Shown here piece after piece: positions 43,964 through 63,126 of a DNA stretch of 64,000 nt. Each line of letters starts with the position of its first letter. The stretch's first letter is position 1. A program made the position numbers and the translations under genes. Location: NCBI RefSeq assembly GCF_017876495.1, contig NZ_JAGIOB010000001.1:4030001-4094000 (forward strand). Reading direction: 5' to 3'. The DNA comes from Microlunatus capsulatus. Lineage in GTDB: Bacteria; Actinomycetota; Actinomycetes; Propionibacteriales; Propionibacteriaceae. The notes below the pieces were generated by a model, which searched no databases, was not told where the DNA came from, and worked only from the letters and a program-made list of their open reading frames with translations.

Positions 43964-43979
43964 TCGAACACCTGTTCGG
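43964..43979. promoter_or_regulatory. LexA (SOS) box upstream of recA
   Basis: TCGAACACCTGTTCGG matches the actinobacterial consensus TCGAACNNNNGTTCGA at 11 of 12 informative positions. It lies 139 bp before the recA ATG. Confidence 0.88.
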
Positions 43980-44043: not shown

Positions 44044-44066
44044 TTGTCAGTGCCTCTCCTTAGAGT
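44044..44066 (+). promoter_or_regulatory. RecA-NDp (PafBC-dependent) promoter of recA
   Basis: TTGTCAGTG (44044-44052), exactly 8 nt, then TAGAGT (44061-44066) is a perfect match to TTGTCRGTG-N8-TANNNT. That is the LexA-independent DNA-damage promoter recognised in mycobacteria through PafBC. Transcription would begin near 44073, giving a ~45-nt leader. Confidence 0.88.
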
Positions 44067-44117: not shown

Positions 44118-45167
44118 ATGATGGCGACCAACGACCGCGAGAAGGCGCTGGAGACAGCACTCGCCCAGATCGACAAGAACTACGGCAAGGGCTCGGTGAT
44201 GCGGCTGGGCGACAACGTCCGCGCACCGCTGGAGGTGATCCCCACCGGCTCGATCTCCCTCGACGTCGCGCTCGGCATCGGCGGGCTCCCGCGCGGCCGG
44301 GTCGTCGAGATCTACGGCCCCGAGTCCAGCGGCAAGACGACGGTGGCCCTGCACGCCATCGCCAACGCCCAGGCCGGCGGCGGCATCTGCGCCTTCATCG
44401 ACGCCGAGCACGCGCTGGACCCCGACTACGCCGCCAAGCTGGGGGTCGACACCGACTCGCTGCTGGTCAGCCAGCCGGACAACGGCGAGCAGGCGCTGGA
44501 GATCGCGGACATGCTGGTCCGCTCCGGCGCGCTGGCCCTCATCGTCATCGACTCCGTGGCGGCCCTGACGCCCCGCGCCGAGATCGAGGGCGAGATGGGC
44601 GACAGTCACGTCGGCCTGCAGGCCCGGCTGATGAGCCAGGCGCTGCGCAAGATGACCGGTGCGCTGAGCAACTCCAACACCACGGCCATCTTCATCAACC
44701 AGCTGCGCGAGAAGATCGGCGTCATGTTCGGCTCGCCCGAGACCACCACCGGTGGTCGGGCGCTGAAGTTCTACTCCTCGGTCCGGCTCGACGTGCGTCG
44801 TATCGAGACGCTCAAGGACGGCCAGGAAATGGTCGGCAACCGGACCCGGGTGAAGGTCGTCAAGAACAAGGTCGCGCCGCCCTTCAAGCAGGCCGAGTTC
44901 GACATTCTCTACGGCAAGGGAATCAGCCGCGAGGGCAGCCTGATCGACCTCGGCGTCGAGGTCGGCATCATCCGCAAGGCGGGGGCCTGGTTCACCTACG
45001 ACGCCGACCAGCTCGGCCAGGGTCGCGAGAACGCGCGCGGCTACCTGATCAGCAACCCCGACCTCGCGAACGAGCTCGAGAAGAAGATCAAGGAGAAGAT
45101 GGGCATCGGCCCGCAGGTGGACGTGCCGGCGGGTGTCGACCCCGTCACCGGTGAGGTGGAGTTCTGA
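44118..45167 (+). CDS. recA: Recombinase RecA
   Basis: The product has 349 residues. Walker A GPESSGKT is at 67-74, followed by [40 protein letters not shown] and the L2 loop with [20 protein letters not shown]. It forms filaments on single-stranded DNA, drives strand exchange and stimulates LexA self-cleavage. GGGAAGG precedes ATG 44118; a second ATG follows immediately. No intein. It is controlled by both a LexA box and a PafBC-type promoter. recX follows. Confidence 0.98.
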
Positions 45168-58297: not shown

Positions 58298-59818
58298 ATG
58301 ACTTCACCTGAGCCGCAGCCCGTCAGCCCGAGCGACGCGGTCGAGGACGACCTGCTGATCGAGCGCCTCGACCCCCGCGACCACCCCGAGTTCGCCCGGC
58401 CCGCCCGGCCCGCCCCCGGTCCCGACGACTCCTACGACGGCGACCAGCAGGACCTCGCCGACCGGCAGTCGCTGCGCCGCGTCGCCGGCATGTCGACCGA
58501 GCTCACCGACATCACCGAGGTCGAGTACCGCCAGCTCCTGCTGGAGCGCGTGGTGCTCGTCAGCGTCTGGACCACCGGGACCGCCGCCGACGCCGAGAAC
58601 TCCCTCGCCGAGCTCAAGCTGCTCGCCGAGACGGCCGGCTCGCAGATCCTCGAGGGCCTGGTCCAGCGGCGCAGCCGCCCCGACCCCGCCACCTACATCG
58701 GCAGCGGCAAGGTCGAGGAGCTGCGCGAGGTCGTCGTCACCACCGGCGCCGACACCGTCATCTGCGACGGCGAGCTGTCGCCGGCCCAGCTGCGCAACCT
58801 CGAGGACAAGGTCAAGGTCAAGGTCATCGACCGGACCGCCCTGATCCTCGACATCTTCGCCCAGCACGCGCAGAGCGCGGAGGGCAAGGCGCAGGTCGAG
58901 ATGGCCCAGCTCAACTACCTCAAGCAGCGCCTGCGCGGCTGGGGTGGCAACCTCTCCCGGCAGGCCGGTGGGCGGGCCGCCGGCGGCGCGGGCATCGGCG
59001 GCCGCGGCCCCGGTGAGACCAAGATCGAGACCGACCGTCGCCGGATCAGCAGCCGGATCGCCAAGCTGCGCCGCGAGCTGCGCGACCTGGACAGCACCCG
59101 GCAGACCGAGCGGGCCGAGCGCCGTCGGCACGAGGTGCCCTCGGTGGCCATCGTCGGCTACACCAACGCCGGGAAGTCGAGCATGCTGAACCGGCTGACC
59201 GACGCCGGCGTGCTGGTCGAGGACGCGCTGTTCGCCACCCTCGACCCGACGACCCGGCGCGCGACCACCCCGGACGGCCGGGTCTACACCCTCACCGACA
59301 CCGTCGGCTTCGTCCGGCACCTGCCGCACGACCTCGTCGAGGCCTTCCGCTCCACGCTGGAGGAGTCGGTGCAGGCCGACCTGCTGCTGCACGTCGTCGA
59401 CGCCTCCGACCCCGACCCCGAGGGCCAGATCCGCGCGGTGCGCGAGGTGCTGGCCGACATCGGCGCCGGCAAGGTCGCCGAGCAGATCGTGCTCAACAAG
59501 GCCGACCAGGCCGACCCGGCCGTGCTGACGACGCTGCGGACCAGCTACCCGGGGGCCGTCATCGCCTCGGCGCGCACCGGTCGCGGCCTGGACGAGGTGC
59601 GCGCGGCGCTCGAGTCGCGGCTGCCGCGCCCCGAGGTCGCGGTGCGGGTGCTGCTGCCCTACGAGCGCGGCGACCTGCTCAACCGGATCCACCAGGCCGG
59701 CCAGATCGTCAGCCTCGAGCACACCGAGGAGGGCACCGTCGTCGACGCGCGCGTCCTGCGCTCCCTCGCCGGCGAGCTGGAGCCCTACCTGCTGGCCGCC
59801 AGCGGTCCTGCGTCCTGA
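58298..59818 (+). CDS. hflX: Ribosome-associated GTPase HflX
   Basis: The product has 506 residues. The N-terminal HflX domain includes RPDPATYIGSGKVEELREVV, the linker carries the glycine-rich AGGRAAGGAGIGGRGPGETK, and G1 is VGYTNAGKSSMLN. TDTVGFVRHLPHDLVEAFRS is G3, and NKAD is G4 (VLNKADQADPA). It splits stalled ribosomes under stress. GGAGGG precedes the ATG. A ~75-residue acidic/Pro-rich N extension precedes the conserved part. Confidence 0.96.
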   Translation: MTSPEPQPVSPSDAVEDDLLIERLDPRDHPEFARPARPAPGPDDSYDGDQQDLADRQSLRRVAGMSTELTDITEVEYRQLLLERVVLVSVWTTGTAADAENSLAELKLLAETAGSQILEGLVQRRSRPDPATYIGSGKVEELREVVVTTGADTVICDGELSPAQLRNLEDKVKVKVIDRTALILDIFAQHAQSAEGKAQVEMAQLNYLKQRLRGWGGNLSRQAGGRAAGGAGIGGRGPGETKIETDRRRISSRIAKLRRELRDLDSTRQTERAERRRHEVPSVAIVGYTNAGKSSMLNRLTDAGVLVEDALFATLDPTTRRATTPDGRVYTLTDTVGFVRHLPHDLVEAFRSTLEESVQADLLLHVVDASDPDPEGQIRAVREVLADIGAGKVAEQIVLNKADQADPAVLTTLRTSYPGAVIASARTGRGLDEVRAALESRLPRPEVAVRVLLPYERGDLLNRIHQAGQIVSLEHTEEGTVVDARVLRSLAGELEPYLLAASGPAS

Positions 59819-59910
59819 GGCCCGTCCCGCGGGCCCGGTCCGGTGCCCGCGGGCGCCGTCCACAGGGCCCGCGGGTTCGGTGTCCCCAGGGCCTGCGCGG
59901 AGGAGGGGCG

Positions 59911-59933
59911 CTGTCGGTGGAGGCCGTTAGAGT
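59911..59933 (+). promoter_or_regulatory. RecA-NDp (PafBC-type) promoter of the DinG-like helicase gene
   Basis: CTGTCGGTG (59911-59919), exactly 8 nt, then TAGAGT (59928-59933), against consensus TTGTCRGTG-N8-TANNNT: only the first base deviates. Six nucleotides later is GTG 59940, so the transcript would start at the initiation codon. Confidence 0.82.
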
Positions 59934-59939
59934 TCTGCG

Positions 59940-62015
59940 GTGACTCCCGCTCCGACCACGACCCGCCCCTGGGCGACCCGGGCCGGGCACCGGGACGTCC
60001 TCGTCGCCGCCGTCGAGAAGATCGGGGGCGCCGAGCGCCCCGGGCAGGTGGCCATGGCCGACGCCGTCGACGACGCCCTGGCCACCGGCCGCCACCTGCT
60101 GATCCAGGCCGGCACGGGCACCGGGAAGTCCCTCGGCTACCTCGCGCCGACGCTGGTCCGGCTGGCGGGCTCGCGCGAGCGGATCGTCATCGCGACCGCC
60201 ACCCTGGCCCTGCAGTCCCAGCTGGCCGACAACGACATCCCCGCGGCCCTGGACGCCGTCCAGAAGGTCACCGGCAAGCGGCCGAAGCACGCGGTGCTCA
60301 AGGGCCGCACCAACTACGCCTGCCTGCTCCGGGTGCGCGACGGCAGCGAGACCGACCAGACCACGCTGATCAGCGCCGCCGACCTGGCCAGCACGATCAC
60401 GCCGAAGGCGACGCCGGAGTCGGCGCTGGGCGCCGAGGTGCTCGCCCTGCGGGAGTGGGCCGAGGAGGAGGCGGGCTCGGGCGGCCTGGCCGACCGGGAC
60501 GGCGCGCCCAGCCACACCGACCGCGGCTGGCAGCAGGTGTCGATCCCCGTCCGCGAGTGCCTCGGGGTGCAGCGCTGCCCGTTCGGCGACGAGTGCTTCG
60601 TCGAGAAGTCCCGGGAGGCGGCCCGGGGCGCCGACCTCGTGGTCACCAACCACGCGCTGCTGGCCATCAACGCCATGCACGGCGGGACCGCCCTGCCCGA
60701 GCACTCCGCCGTCATCATCGACGAGGCCCACGAGCTGGTGGCCAGGGTGACCGGTGCCGCGTCGGCCGAGCTGACCCCCGCCCAGATCGAGCGGGTGGCC
60801 CGGCGGGCGATGGTGCACCTCGACGACGACGTCGCCCTGGACCTGCTGGAGTCGGCCGAGGCCCTCCGCGGGGCGCTCGAGGGCGCGCCGCTGGAGCGGG
60901 TCGAGGACGCCGCCTCCGGCTTCGTCGAGGGCTGCGGCGTCGTCCGCGACGCCGCGCGCACCGCCGTCAGCAAGCTGAGCGGCGGGGACGACAAGTCCGA
61001 CGGCGAGCGCCGGCAGGCCGCGGCAGCGGTCAAGGAGGTCTTCGACGTCGCCGAGCGGATGGCCGCCCTGCACGCGACCGACGTCGTCTGGGTGAGCGAC
61101 TCCGAGCGGATGGGCCGCGCCGCCCGGGTGGCCCCGCTCAGCGTCGCGGGGCTGATGCGCAGCGCCGTCTTCGGGGAGGCGACCACCGTCCTCACCTCCG
61201 CCACCCTCAAGCTCGGGGGCGAGTTCACCCAGATGGCGGGCAGCGTCGGGCTGCGGCCCTCCGAGCGCGACGACAGCGCCGACGAGCCCGCGAGCTCGGT
61301 CGCCGACACCGACGGCGCGACGGCCGACGACGACGCCCCGGTGCGCTGGCGCGGGCTCGACGTGGGGTCGCCGTTCGACTACGGGCGCCAGGGCATCCTC
61401 TACCTCACCCGCTCGATGCCGGCCCCGGGCCGCGACGGGATGCCGGCCGAGGTGCTGACCGAGATCGCCGAGCTGGTCTGGGCGGCGGGCGGGCGCACCC
61501 TGGGCCTGTTCTCGTCCCGGCGCGCCGCCGAGGCCGCCGCGGTGCACGTGCGCAAGCAGCTGCCCAAGCAGACGGTGCTGTGCCAGGGCGACGCCCAGCT
61601 CTCCGAGCTCACCCGCCGGTTCGTGGCCGAGGAGCAGACGAGCCTGTTCGGCACGCTCTCGCTGTGGCAGGGGATCGACGTGCCCGGGCCGACGTGCTCC
61701 CTCGTGATCATCGACCGGGTACCGTTCCCGCGCCCCGACGAGCCGCTGACGCTGGCGCGCCAGCGGGCGGTCGCCGAGGCCGGGGGCAACGGGTTCATGA
61801 GCGTCGCGGCGACGCACGCCGCGCTGCTGCTGGCCCAGGGCGCCGGCCGGCTGATCCGCCGGACCGACGACAAGGGCGTCGTGGCCGTGCTCGACCCGCG
61901 GCTGGCGACCGCCCGCTACGGCAGCTTCCTGCGCGCCTCCATGCCGCCGATGTGGCAGACGAGCGACCGGGAGACGGTGGTGCAGGCGCTGCGGAGGCTG
62001 TCCGGCCAGGCCTGA
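59940..62015 (+). CDS. dinG: ATP-dependent DNA helicase, DinG/XPD family
   Basis: The product has 691 residues. Walker A is IQAGTGTGKSLGYLAPTL (near 58). Candidate 4Fe-4S cysteines are in NYACLLRVRD and ECLGVQRCPFGDECFVEK. The DEAH box is VIIDEAHELV, and GLFSSRRAAEAAAVHV, LSLWQGIDVPGPTCSLVIID and GAGRLIRR are later motifs. The family unwinds R-loops and damaged DNA 5'-3'. The promoter predicts leaderless, damage-induced expression through PafBC. It is convergent with lexA with only 22 bp between stops. Confidence 0.93.
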   Translation: MTPAPTTTRPWATRAGHRDVLVAAVEKIGGAERPGQVAMADAVDDALATGRHLLIQAGTGTGKSLGYLAPTLVRLAGSRERIVIATATLALQSQLADNDIPAALDAVQKVTGKRPKHAVLKGRTNYACLLRVRDGSETDQTTLISAADLASTITPKATPESALGAEVLALREWAEEEAGSGGLADRDGAPSHTDRGWQQVSIPVRECLGVQRCPFGDECFVEKSREAARGADLVVTNHALLAINAMHGGTALPEHSAVIIDEAHELVARVTGAASAELTPAQIERVARRAMVHLDDDVALDLLESAEALRGALEGAPLERVEDAASGFVEGCGVVRDAARTAVSKLSGGDDKSDGERRQAAAAVKEVFDVAERMAALHATDVVWVSDSERMGRAARVAPLSVAGLMRSAVFGEATTVLTSATLKLGGEFTQMAGSVGLRPSERDDSADEPASSVADTDGATADDDAPVRWRGLDVGSPFDYGRQGILYLTRSMPAPGRDGMPAEVLTEIAELVWAAGGRTLGLFSSRRAAEAAAVHVRKQLPKQTVLCQGDAQLSELTRRFVAEEQTSLFGTLSLWQGIDVPGPTCSLVIIDRVPFPRPDEPLTLARQRAVAEAGGNGFMSVAATHAALLLAQGAGRLIRRTDDKGVVAVLDPRLATARYGSFLRASMPPMWQTSDRETVVQALRRLSGQA

Positions 62016-62037: not shown

Positions 62038-62880
62038 TCAGACCTTGCGGAGGACGGCGACGACCTTGCCCAGGATCGAGGCGTGGTTGCCGTCGATCGG
62101 GTCGTAGGCCGGGTTGTGCGGCATCAGCCAGACCTGGCCGTCGCGCCGCTTGAACGTCTTGACGGTCGCCTCGTCGTTGAGCAGCGCGGCGACGATGTCC
62201 CCGTTCTCCGCCGTCGGCTGCTGCCGCACGACCACCCAGTCGCGGTCGCAGATGGCGGCCTCGATCATCGAGTCGCCGCGCACCTCGAGCAGGAACATCG
62301 TGCCCTGGCCCACGAGCTGGTGCGGCAGGGCGAACACGTCCTCGATCCGCTCCTCGGCCAGGATCGGCCCGCCGGCCGCGATCCGGCCCAGGACCGGGAC
62401 GTGCACGGGGGCGGGGTAGGCGTCGCCGCGGCCGGTGTCGTCGGTCTCCACCTCGGCCAGCACGGGGGGCCGGGGCGTGTCGGCCACCGCCGGCGCGACC
62501 GGGCGGGCGTCGCCCTCGCCCGGCAGCAGCACCTCGAGCGCCCGCGGCCGGTTCGGGTCGCGGCGCAGGAAGCCCTTCTGCTCCAGGGTCTTCAGCTGGT
62601 GGGCGACGCTCGAGGAGCTGGCCAGGCCCACGGCCTCGCCCATCTCCCGGATGCTCGGCGGGTAGCCGCGGCTGTCCACCGCCTCCTTGATGACCTCGAG
62701 GACGCGGCGCTGGCGCGGGGTCAGGCCGTGCGCGTCGGCCGGGCCGTCGGGCAGCGAGCGGACCGTCCCGCTGGTCCCCAGCTGGGCCTCGACCTCGGCC
62801 GCGCTGGGCCGTCCGCGCTTGCGCGTCCGGGGGGCGGGTGCGGGCCCGGTCGGGGAGGTGGGGTCGTCACGGTCTGCCAT
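62038..62880 (-). CDS. lexA: SOS repressor LexA
   Basis: The product has 280 residues. The N-terminal winged helix includes [20 protein letters not shown] (74-93). The cleavage bond is Ala169-Gly170 in [10 protein letters not shown], with the catalytic Ser204 (VRGDSMIEA) and Lys241 (ATVKTFKRR). It represses SOS genes and is self-cleaved on RecA filaments. ~45 N-terminal residues are an actinomycete-type disordered extension, and ~40 residues around 118-155 between domains are long. The promoter puts the transcript start at the ATG. Confidence 0.97.
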
Positions 62881-62887
62881 GCGGCTG

Positions 62888-62928
62888 AATCTAGGGAAGC
62901 CCCCGGGTGAAATCAAACACCTGTTCGA
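62888..62928 (-). promoter_or_regulatory. lexA promoter with overlapping LexA box
   Basis: On the minus strand, -35 TTGATT (62916-62911), 17 nt, then -10 TAGATT (62893-62888), followed by 7 nt and ATG 62880. The LexA box TCAAACACCTGTTCGA (62913-62928, plus-strand reading) covers the -35, giving direct autorepression. Confidence 0.82.
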
Positions 62929-63043
62929 GCGTGTCGCGCCCGCGTCCTGCAGGCGGGCGCCGGGCTCGGCGCCGAGAACTGTCAGTGGTCCCTGGTGGGG
63001 TGAGGACATGAGCACCTCCGGAGCGGCGACCCTCGACCTCGGG

Positions 63044-63094: not shown

Positions 63095-63126
63095 TCAAAC
63101 ACACGTTCTATCGAACGTCTGTTCGA
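63095..63126. promoter_or_regulatory. Abutting tandem LexA boxes 2 and 3
   Basis: TCAAACACACGTTCTA (63095-63110, two deviations) is immediately followed by TCGAACGTCTGTTCGA (63111-63126), a perfect consensus box. With no gap between them, two LexA dimers would lie head to tail. Confidence 0.82.

Follow-up and report, generated by a model that had tools for sequence, protein, structure and literature searches.

The dinG gene and its promoter

The window analysed here is a stretch of 64,000 nt, whose positions are counted from its first letter (position 1), and it carries a gene for a helicase of the DinG/XPD family (Table 1), called dinG in the following. The product matches the profiles PF00270 (4.9e-09) and PF13307 (1.5e-33), and four of its cysteines, C128, C207, C213 and C219, are invariant across the five sequences aligned; they are candidates for the four Fe-S cysteines of the family. 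The NCBIfam equivalog cut-offs are missed, both for YoaA (402 of 680) and for DinG (280 of 598), and the product is therefore named by family and not by equivalog.

The TAG at 59928 lies in frame with the gene, so that no start codon is possible ahead of GTG 59940; the second in-frame start is found 108 nt further, beyond L21, A24, G30, R33 and Q36, all invariant in the five aligned sequences. Because of this stop within the -10 element and of the residues conserved from L21 on, the start is assigned to GTG 59940, the sole one that retains the conserved N-terminus. Inspection by eye of the region upstream of the GTG revealed only two purine-rich stretches, both inside the promoter, AGAG in the -10 element, which ends 7 nt ahead of the GTG, and GGAGG, 16 nt ahead; apart from these no ribosome-binding site was seen.

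Table 1. Coordinates of the features discussed, in the numbering of the window
Feature	Position	Strand	Basis
PafBC (-26) element CTGTCGGTG; core TGTCGGTG fully matched	59911..59919	+	motif comparison
Spacer, 8 nt (GAGGCCGT)	59920..59927	+	motif spacing
-10 element TAGAGT; its TAG doubles as in-frame stop before dinG	59928..59933	+	reading frame
Predicted transcription start, the G of the GTG start codon	59940	+	inferred from -10 spacing
dinG, DinG/XPD-family helicase gene, 691 aa, DEAD and Helicase_C_2	59940..62015	+	profile matches
Complete RecA-NDp motif at recA (internal reference)	44044..44066	+	0 mismatches
SOS-type box (exact) ahead of recA, for contrast with dinG	43965..43978	+	pattern scan

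Positions 59911-59933 read CTGTCGGTG-GAGGCCGT-TAGAGT and are followed by TCTGCG (59934-59939) and by the start codon (59940-59942). Compared with the RecA-NDp motif TTGTCRGTG-N8-TANNNT, the site has one mismatch, namely the outermost T; TGTCRGTG is exact at 59912-59919 and the spacer to TANNNT is exactly 8 nt long. The outermost T is missing in seven of the eight core sites of the genome, and it is not part of the M. tuberculosis form of the motif, TGTCRG-N10-TANNNT, given in PMC8151990. The deviation of one base, the 8-nt spacing and the GTG 6 nt past the -10, all described in the first-pass annotation, are confirmed by the letters, and the presence of a RecA-NDp-type motif at dinG is thus confirmed.

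With 6 nt between TAGAGT and GTG, the start codon sits on the predicted +1. In S. lividans the distance from -10 to start has a mean of 6.3 nt and a range of 4-9, and a purine is found at 97.1% of leaderless starts, according to PMC8079986. Since the in-frame TAG fixes the start at GTG 59940 on the predicted +1, the dinG transcript is most likely leaderless, its 5' end being placed by the spacing of the -10 element.

The same annotation had seen no LexA box upstream of dinG, and the scan agrees with it. Using CGAAC-N4-GTTCG, which we assume as SOS consensus, no box-like site with up to two mismatches was found between those at 58381 and 62331, an interval that includes the dinG region; at this tolerance the window contains 52 matches versus 39.6 by chance, a barely noticeable excess. 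SOS-type boxes are present around lexA (TIGR00498), at 63112 (exact) and at 62914 and 63045 (one mismatch each). The lexA gene itself has, in its start region (62878-62927, minus strand), TAGATT 7 nt before its ATG (62880), accompanied by the one-mismatch box at 62914-62927, and looks leaderless too, judging from this spacing; M. tuberculosis LexA is reported as leaderless in PMC2897130. Another PafBC-like element, CTGTCAGTG, is found at 62979-63010 amid several SOS-type boxes, with TGGGGT replacing the -10, 6 nt before an ATG; the latter opens a frame of 42 codons, which is flanked by lexA and by an ATG frame running rightward from 63148.

PafBC and RecA-NDp sites in the genome

Six WYL matches are present in the genome, and PafB and PafC are encoded by a pair of overlapping genes near 3.992-3.994 Mb. 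PafB contains WYL and WCX domains and matches a chain of PDB 7p5x (phmmer 7.8e-59); PafC is recognized by HTH_PafC (4.9e-42) and also matches a 7p5x chain (phmmer 2.2e-46). The search for the two genes, which had been put forward together with the initial reading of the promoter, thus found both, near pafA: indeed, the pair is preceded on the same strand by this Pup ligase gene and by an FKBP gene, the latter separated from pafB by about 1.3 kb with open frames on both strands and no family match. Some 36 kb separate the end of the pair from the window, and no RecA-NDp site with up to one mismatch was detected in the 14 kb around it.

In the window, seven sites lie within two mismatches of TTGTCRGTG-N8-TANNNT, versus 0.81 expected from shuffles; the core followed by 6 nt and RTG occurs once exactly and once with one mismatch, versus a shuffle mean of 0.02. 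The whole genome of 4.41 Mb contains eight exact core sites and 20 sites with up to one mismatch to the longer motif, the reversed-pattern control giving none in either case; in four of these 20, a start opening a frame of at least 60 codons is lacking within 90 nt. The genes behind the eight core sites include recA, radA, dnaX and dinG; an ABC transporter gene, a gene for a 4Fe-4S protein and two genes whose products match no family belong to the eight as well, and not all of the set thus look like repair genes. A one-mismatch site lies upstream of polA, the DNA polymerase I gene, which was read to the end of the locus. The recA gene (TIGR02012), whose motif served as internal reference, is leadered, with GGGAAGGAC ahead of its ATG at 44118. 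At dinG, a leaderless promoter that depends on PafBC (RecA-NDp type) and is inducible by DNA damage is the likely driver of expression, as judged from its sequence.

Conservation at dinG orthologues

Conservation was followed at 112 dinG loci, drawn from 80 named loci, 29 of relatives and four others (the window's own, L016, L018 and L019), after leaving out L146, where the Walker pattern was unmatched and which had two mismatches in another scan; a phylum-wide DinG sample was mostly too distant for use. TANNNT is found 5-10 nt ahead of an in-frame start at 97 of the 112 loci, a criterion that permits several in-frame starts per locus and that chance could satisfy at a few; at L018 and L019, two loci from the same class, the hexamer is absent at this distance. 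Among the 97, TGTCRGTG is placed exactly 8 nt before the -10 without mismatch at 41, with up to one mismatch at 59 and with up to two at 70; over 99 other spacings the highest counts were 0, 1 and 9, respectively. These numbers are dominated by one genus, since Streptomyces contributes 43 of the 80 named loci, 41 of them within one mismatch. A locus within one mismatch occurs in 9 of the 28 named groups and the exact box in five: Acrocarpospora, Kibdelosporangium, Nocardia, Nocardioides and Streptomyces. In Streptomyces dinG the -10 and the ATG are separated by 9 or 10 nt, and a leader of 0-3 nt is therefore possible.

PafC scores over the family cut-off in 48 of the 50 genomes searched, which derive from the 80 named loci, and is thus too widespread for its presence or absence to be informative at the dinG loci. 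In the 350 nt upstream of dinG, the whole motif is matched at best with three mismatches in Terrabacter, with three to four in Kitasatospora and with at least four in Cutibacterium, Arachnia, Propioniciclava, Jiangella, Marmoricola, Propionicicella and Phycicoccus; Tomitella has a candidate with two mismatches, yet 16-19 nt ahead of its starts. The sequence checks proposed in the first-pass annotation were favourable for the most part: in the scan of orthologous dinG genes the exactly spaced motif recurs at many of them, but the box is missing in several Propionibacteriaceae and others, though PafC is present. One dinG, 53% identical to that of the window, comes from a metagenome bin labelled Spirochaetaceae (L083), probably a mis-binned contig.

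The distribution among relatives bears on the explanation that comes closest to competing, according to which dinG has a constitutive, sigma-A-dependent leaderless promoter, TGTCGGTG is a relic or a coincidence and the gene is not damage-induced here. Such promoters would resemble six loci (L125, L134, L136, L145, L147 and L148), out of 23 having such a -10 in the window's genome and relatives, in which TANNNT is still 6 nt before the start and the box has at least five mismatches; because these loci keep the hexamer without the box, leaderless geometry and PafBC box come and go separately. Conversely, in the window both core and spacing are exact, and the box is kept in L123, a 94%-identical relative, and is exact or with one mismatch in L124, L126, L128 and L137; this, together with the lack of any exact match at the other spacings, makes the constitutive promoter improbable in comparison with PafBC control.

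Even less probable is that dinG is mainly transcribed by read-through from hflX, its own promoter being minor. The hflX gene is on the same strand and ends 121 nt upstream, the region 59700-60100 showed no T-tract terminator, and in L130, L131 and L137 the dinG frame is open for 486-534 nt ahead of the Walker motif. However, a strong GC hairpin is possible in the gap between the two genes (59810-59905; -62.9 kcal/mol, z -2.64, no T tract), and a leadered dinG would have just the two purine-rich stretches mentioned above as ribosome-binding site, which argues for the promoter at dinG as the main one.

Motif and PafC across genomes

The association of the motif with PafBC was also considered on a larger scale. 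In 37 genomes, which are part of the 50 scanned for PafC (13 were omitted, 11 being metagenome bins), TTGTCRGTG-N8-TANNNT has 397 sites versus one for the reversed control and is present in 33; with an N10 spacer the same genomes give five sites versus four for the control. In a class sample PafC was found in 86 of 88 genomes, both lacking ones belonging to one family, in which none of five genomes has it. The core motif was searched in 75 genomes, with 16 of the 88 omitted and three more included from the family without PafC: the 70 genomes with PafC gave 860 sites versus 32 controls, and the five without it seven versus three. The presence of PafC is not sufficient, because in 5 of the 70 genomes the sites are no more than the control. 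By these counts the density of the motif goes with PafC in this sample, where the side lacking PafC consists of five genomes of one family with unmatched base composition.

Thus, an activator other than PafBC, either a different WYL regulator or ClgR, has only a very slight chance of being the one that reads the motif at dinG: the genome has six WYL matches, and ClgR was formerly credited with P1 (PMC5656591), but in the class sample the motif is rich in genomes with PafC and near control in the single family without it. As for TAGAGT being a weak Shine-Dalgarno sequence (AGAG, 7 nt from its end to the GTG) of a leadered mRNA and not a -10, this is hardly conceivable and was rejected, since the middle of the hexamer varies at other motif sites (TACCGT, TAACGT, TATGGT, TACGCT) and is often unlike a Shine-Dalgarno sequence.

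Two further observations concern sites elsewhere. Near-identical sites around TGTCAGTGGTGGCTTGTACGTT are repeated in two genomes (at least six in G192 and at least three in G160), which would fit a mobile element or a repeated gene family equipped with a RecA-NDp promoter of its own. In L352 a frame starts 6 nt past an exact core motif; from its N-terminus we presume it to be TnpB-like.

Leaderless starts at RecA-NDp sites

How often RecA-NDp sites are followed by leaderless starts was determined on 150 of the 397 sites (30 loci and 119 stretches among the sites listed, one with two sites), 149 being usable. An ATG or GTG lies 6 or 7 nt past the -10 at 68 of these, the mean per offset at 12-119 being 4.6; requiring an open frame of at least 70 codons, the count is 66 (mean 3.0 per offset), and 48 of 108 gene clusters have a member starting at 6-8 nt. 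A second sample included 30 loci from 15 further genomes of eight families, three of them left out as too short; a start at 6-7 nt was found in 16 of the 27 usable sites, and in 15 of them it opens a long frame. Among the proteins encoded at the 73 sites that have their start at 6-8 nt are six RecA, four of DnaX or delta-prime type, four UvrB and four calcineurin-like phosphoesterases; one of the latter was checked as SbcD. In six RecA loci, out of ten sites of the cluster (L187, L252, L257, L267, L274 and L297, from Jiangella, Nocardioides, Kitasatospora and Streptomyces), the start lies 7-8 nt past the RecA-NDp -10 and is in frame with RecA, and would add 12-22 residues before a later Met, unlike the leadered recA of the window's genome.

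The 66 of 149 sites are twice the genome-wide leaderless rates of 17% and 21% published in PMC8079986. However, when the Streptomyces -10 frequencies of that text are combined as a product, assuming independence, and conditioned on TAnnnT, 35-41% leaderless starts are expected for strict TAnnnT promoters. Against the two ends of this range, p is 0.012 and 0.24 for 66/149, 0.11 and 0.62 for 60/149 (background subtracted), and 0.027 and 0.28 for the 48 of 108 clusters; in the second sample it is 0.0087 and 0.044 for 16/27, and 0.023 and 0.094 for 15/27. That PafBC promoters are specially leaderless was not upheld, the excess in the main sample being weak, and such a link is not claimed, because a strict -10 alone predicts 35-41%; the idea is retained because the second sample leans the other way, with a modest excess. 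It is rather doubtful that, throughout Actinobacteria, the PafBC regulon is built for leaderless translation beyond the effect of a strict -10, so that repair proteins would be made independently of Shine-Dalgarno sequences under stress. No report linking leaderless mRNAs with PafBC or RecA-NDp was found in a limited literature collection, and the word "leaderless" is absent from the main text of PMC5087735, which describes the SCO6735 promoter.

Relation to known promoters and significance

The dinG promoter resembles mycobacterial RecA-NDp/PafBC promoters in TGTCRGTG-N8-TANNNT, in the presence of both PafB and PafC in the genome and in recA being among the sites, and differs in the gene, which here is dinG. 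The latter is unnamed in the main text of the PafBC papers searched; their supplements or the Mueller 2018 regulon table may list it. The Streptomyces recA and SCO6735 promoters have the same motif ahead of other genes: PMC5087735 describes the UV-induced RecA-NDp promoter at SCO6735, citing work on S. rimosus recA, and places this promoter type ahead of numerous damage genes in Actinomycetales, as repeated in PMC9411070; an extension of the motif beyond mycobacteria is also stated in PMC8223512. RecA-NDp promoters outside mycobacteria are thus already published, and dinG is a further case. PMC9380542 mentions an initial search from which conservation of the M. smegmatis motif in S. venezuelae seemed to be lacking; this is not in easy agreement with the numbers of sites obtained here for Streptomyces, from genomes that exclude S. 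venezuelae. With actinobacterial leaderless mRNAs dinG shares a start codon 6-7 nt past TANNNT, and it differs from them by the added damage-type -26 element.

In mycobacteria, PafBC is activated by single-stranded DNA upon DNA damage and acts by sigma adaptation (PMC11804915). For dinG we infer a similar sequence of events: activated PafBC would connect the TGTCGGTG element with the housekeeping sigma factor, at domain 4 of the latter, as in the mycobacterial mechanism; RNA polymerase would use the TAGAGT hexamer and initiate on the G of GTG 59940, and the resulting leaderless mRNA would be translated without a Shine-Dalgarno sequence. The interpretation originally given to this promoter is therefore supported, with the specification that leaderless geometry is not confined to PafBC promoters; at dinG this geometry and the PafBC box are separable in evolution. 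Outside mycobacteria, the likely targets of PafBC would gain a helicase, and dinG, with no SOS box found here, represents a simple test gene for whether the LexA-independent response works in other actinobacteria, a question raised but not settled in a 2022 Streptomyces paper.
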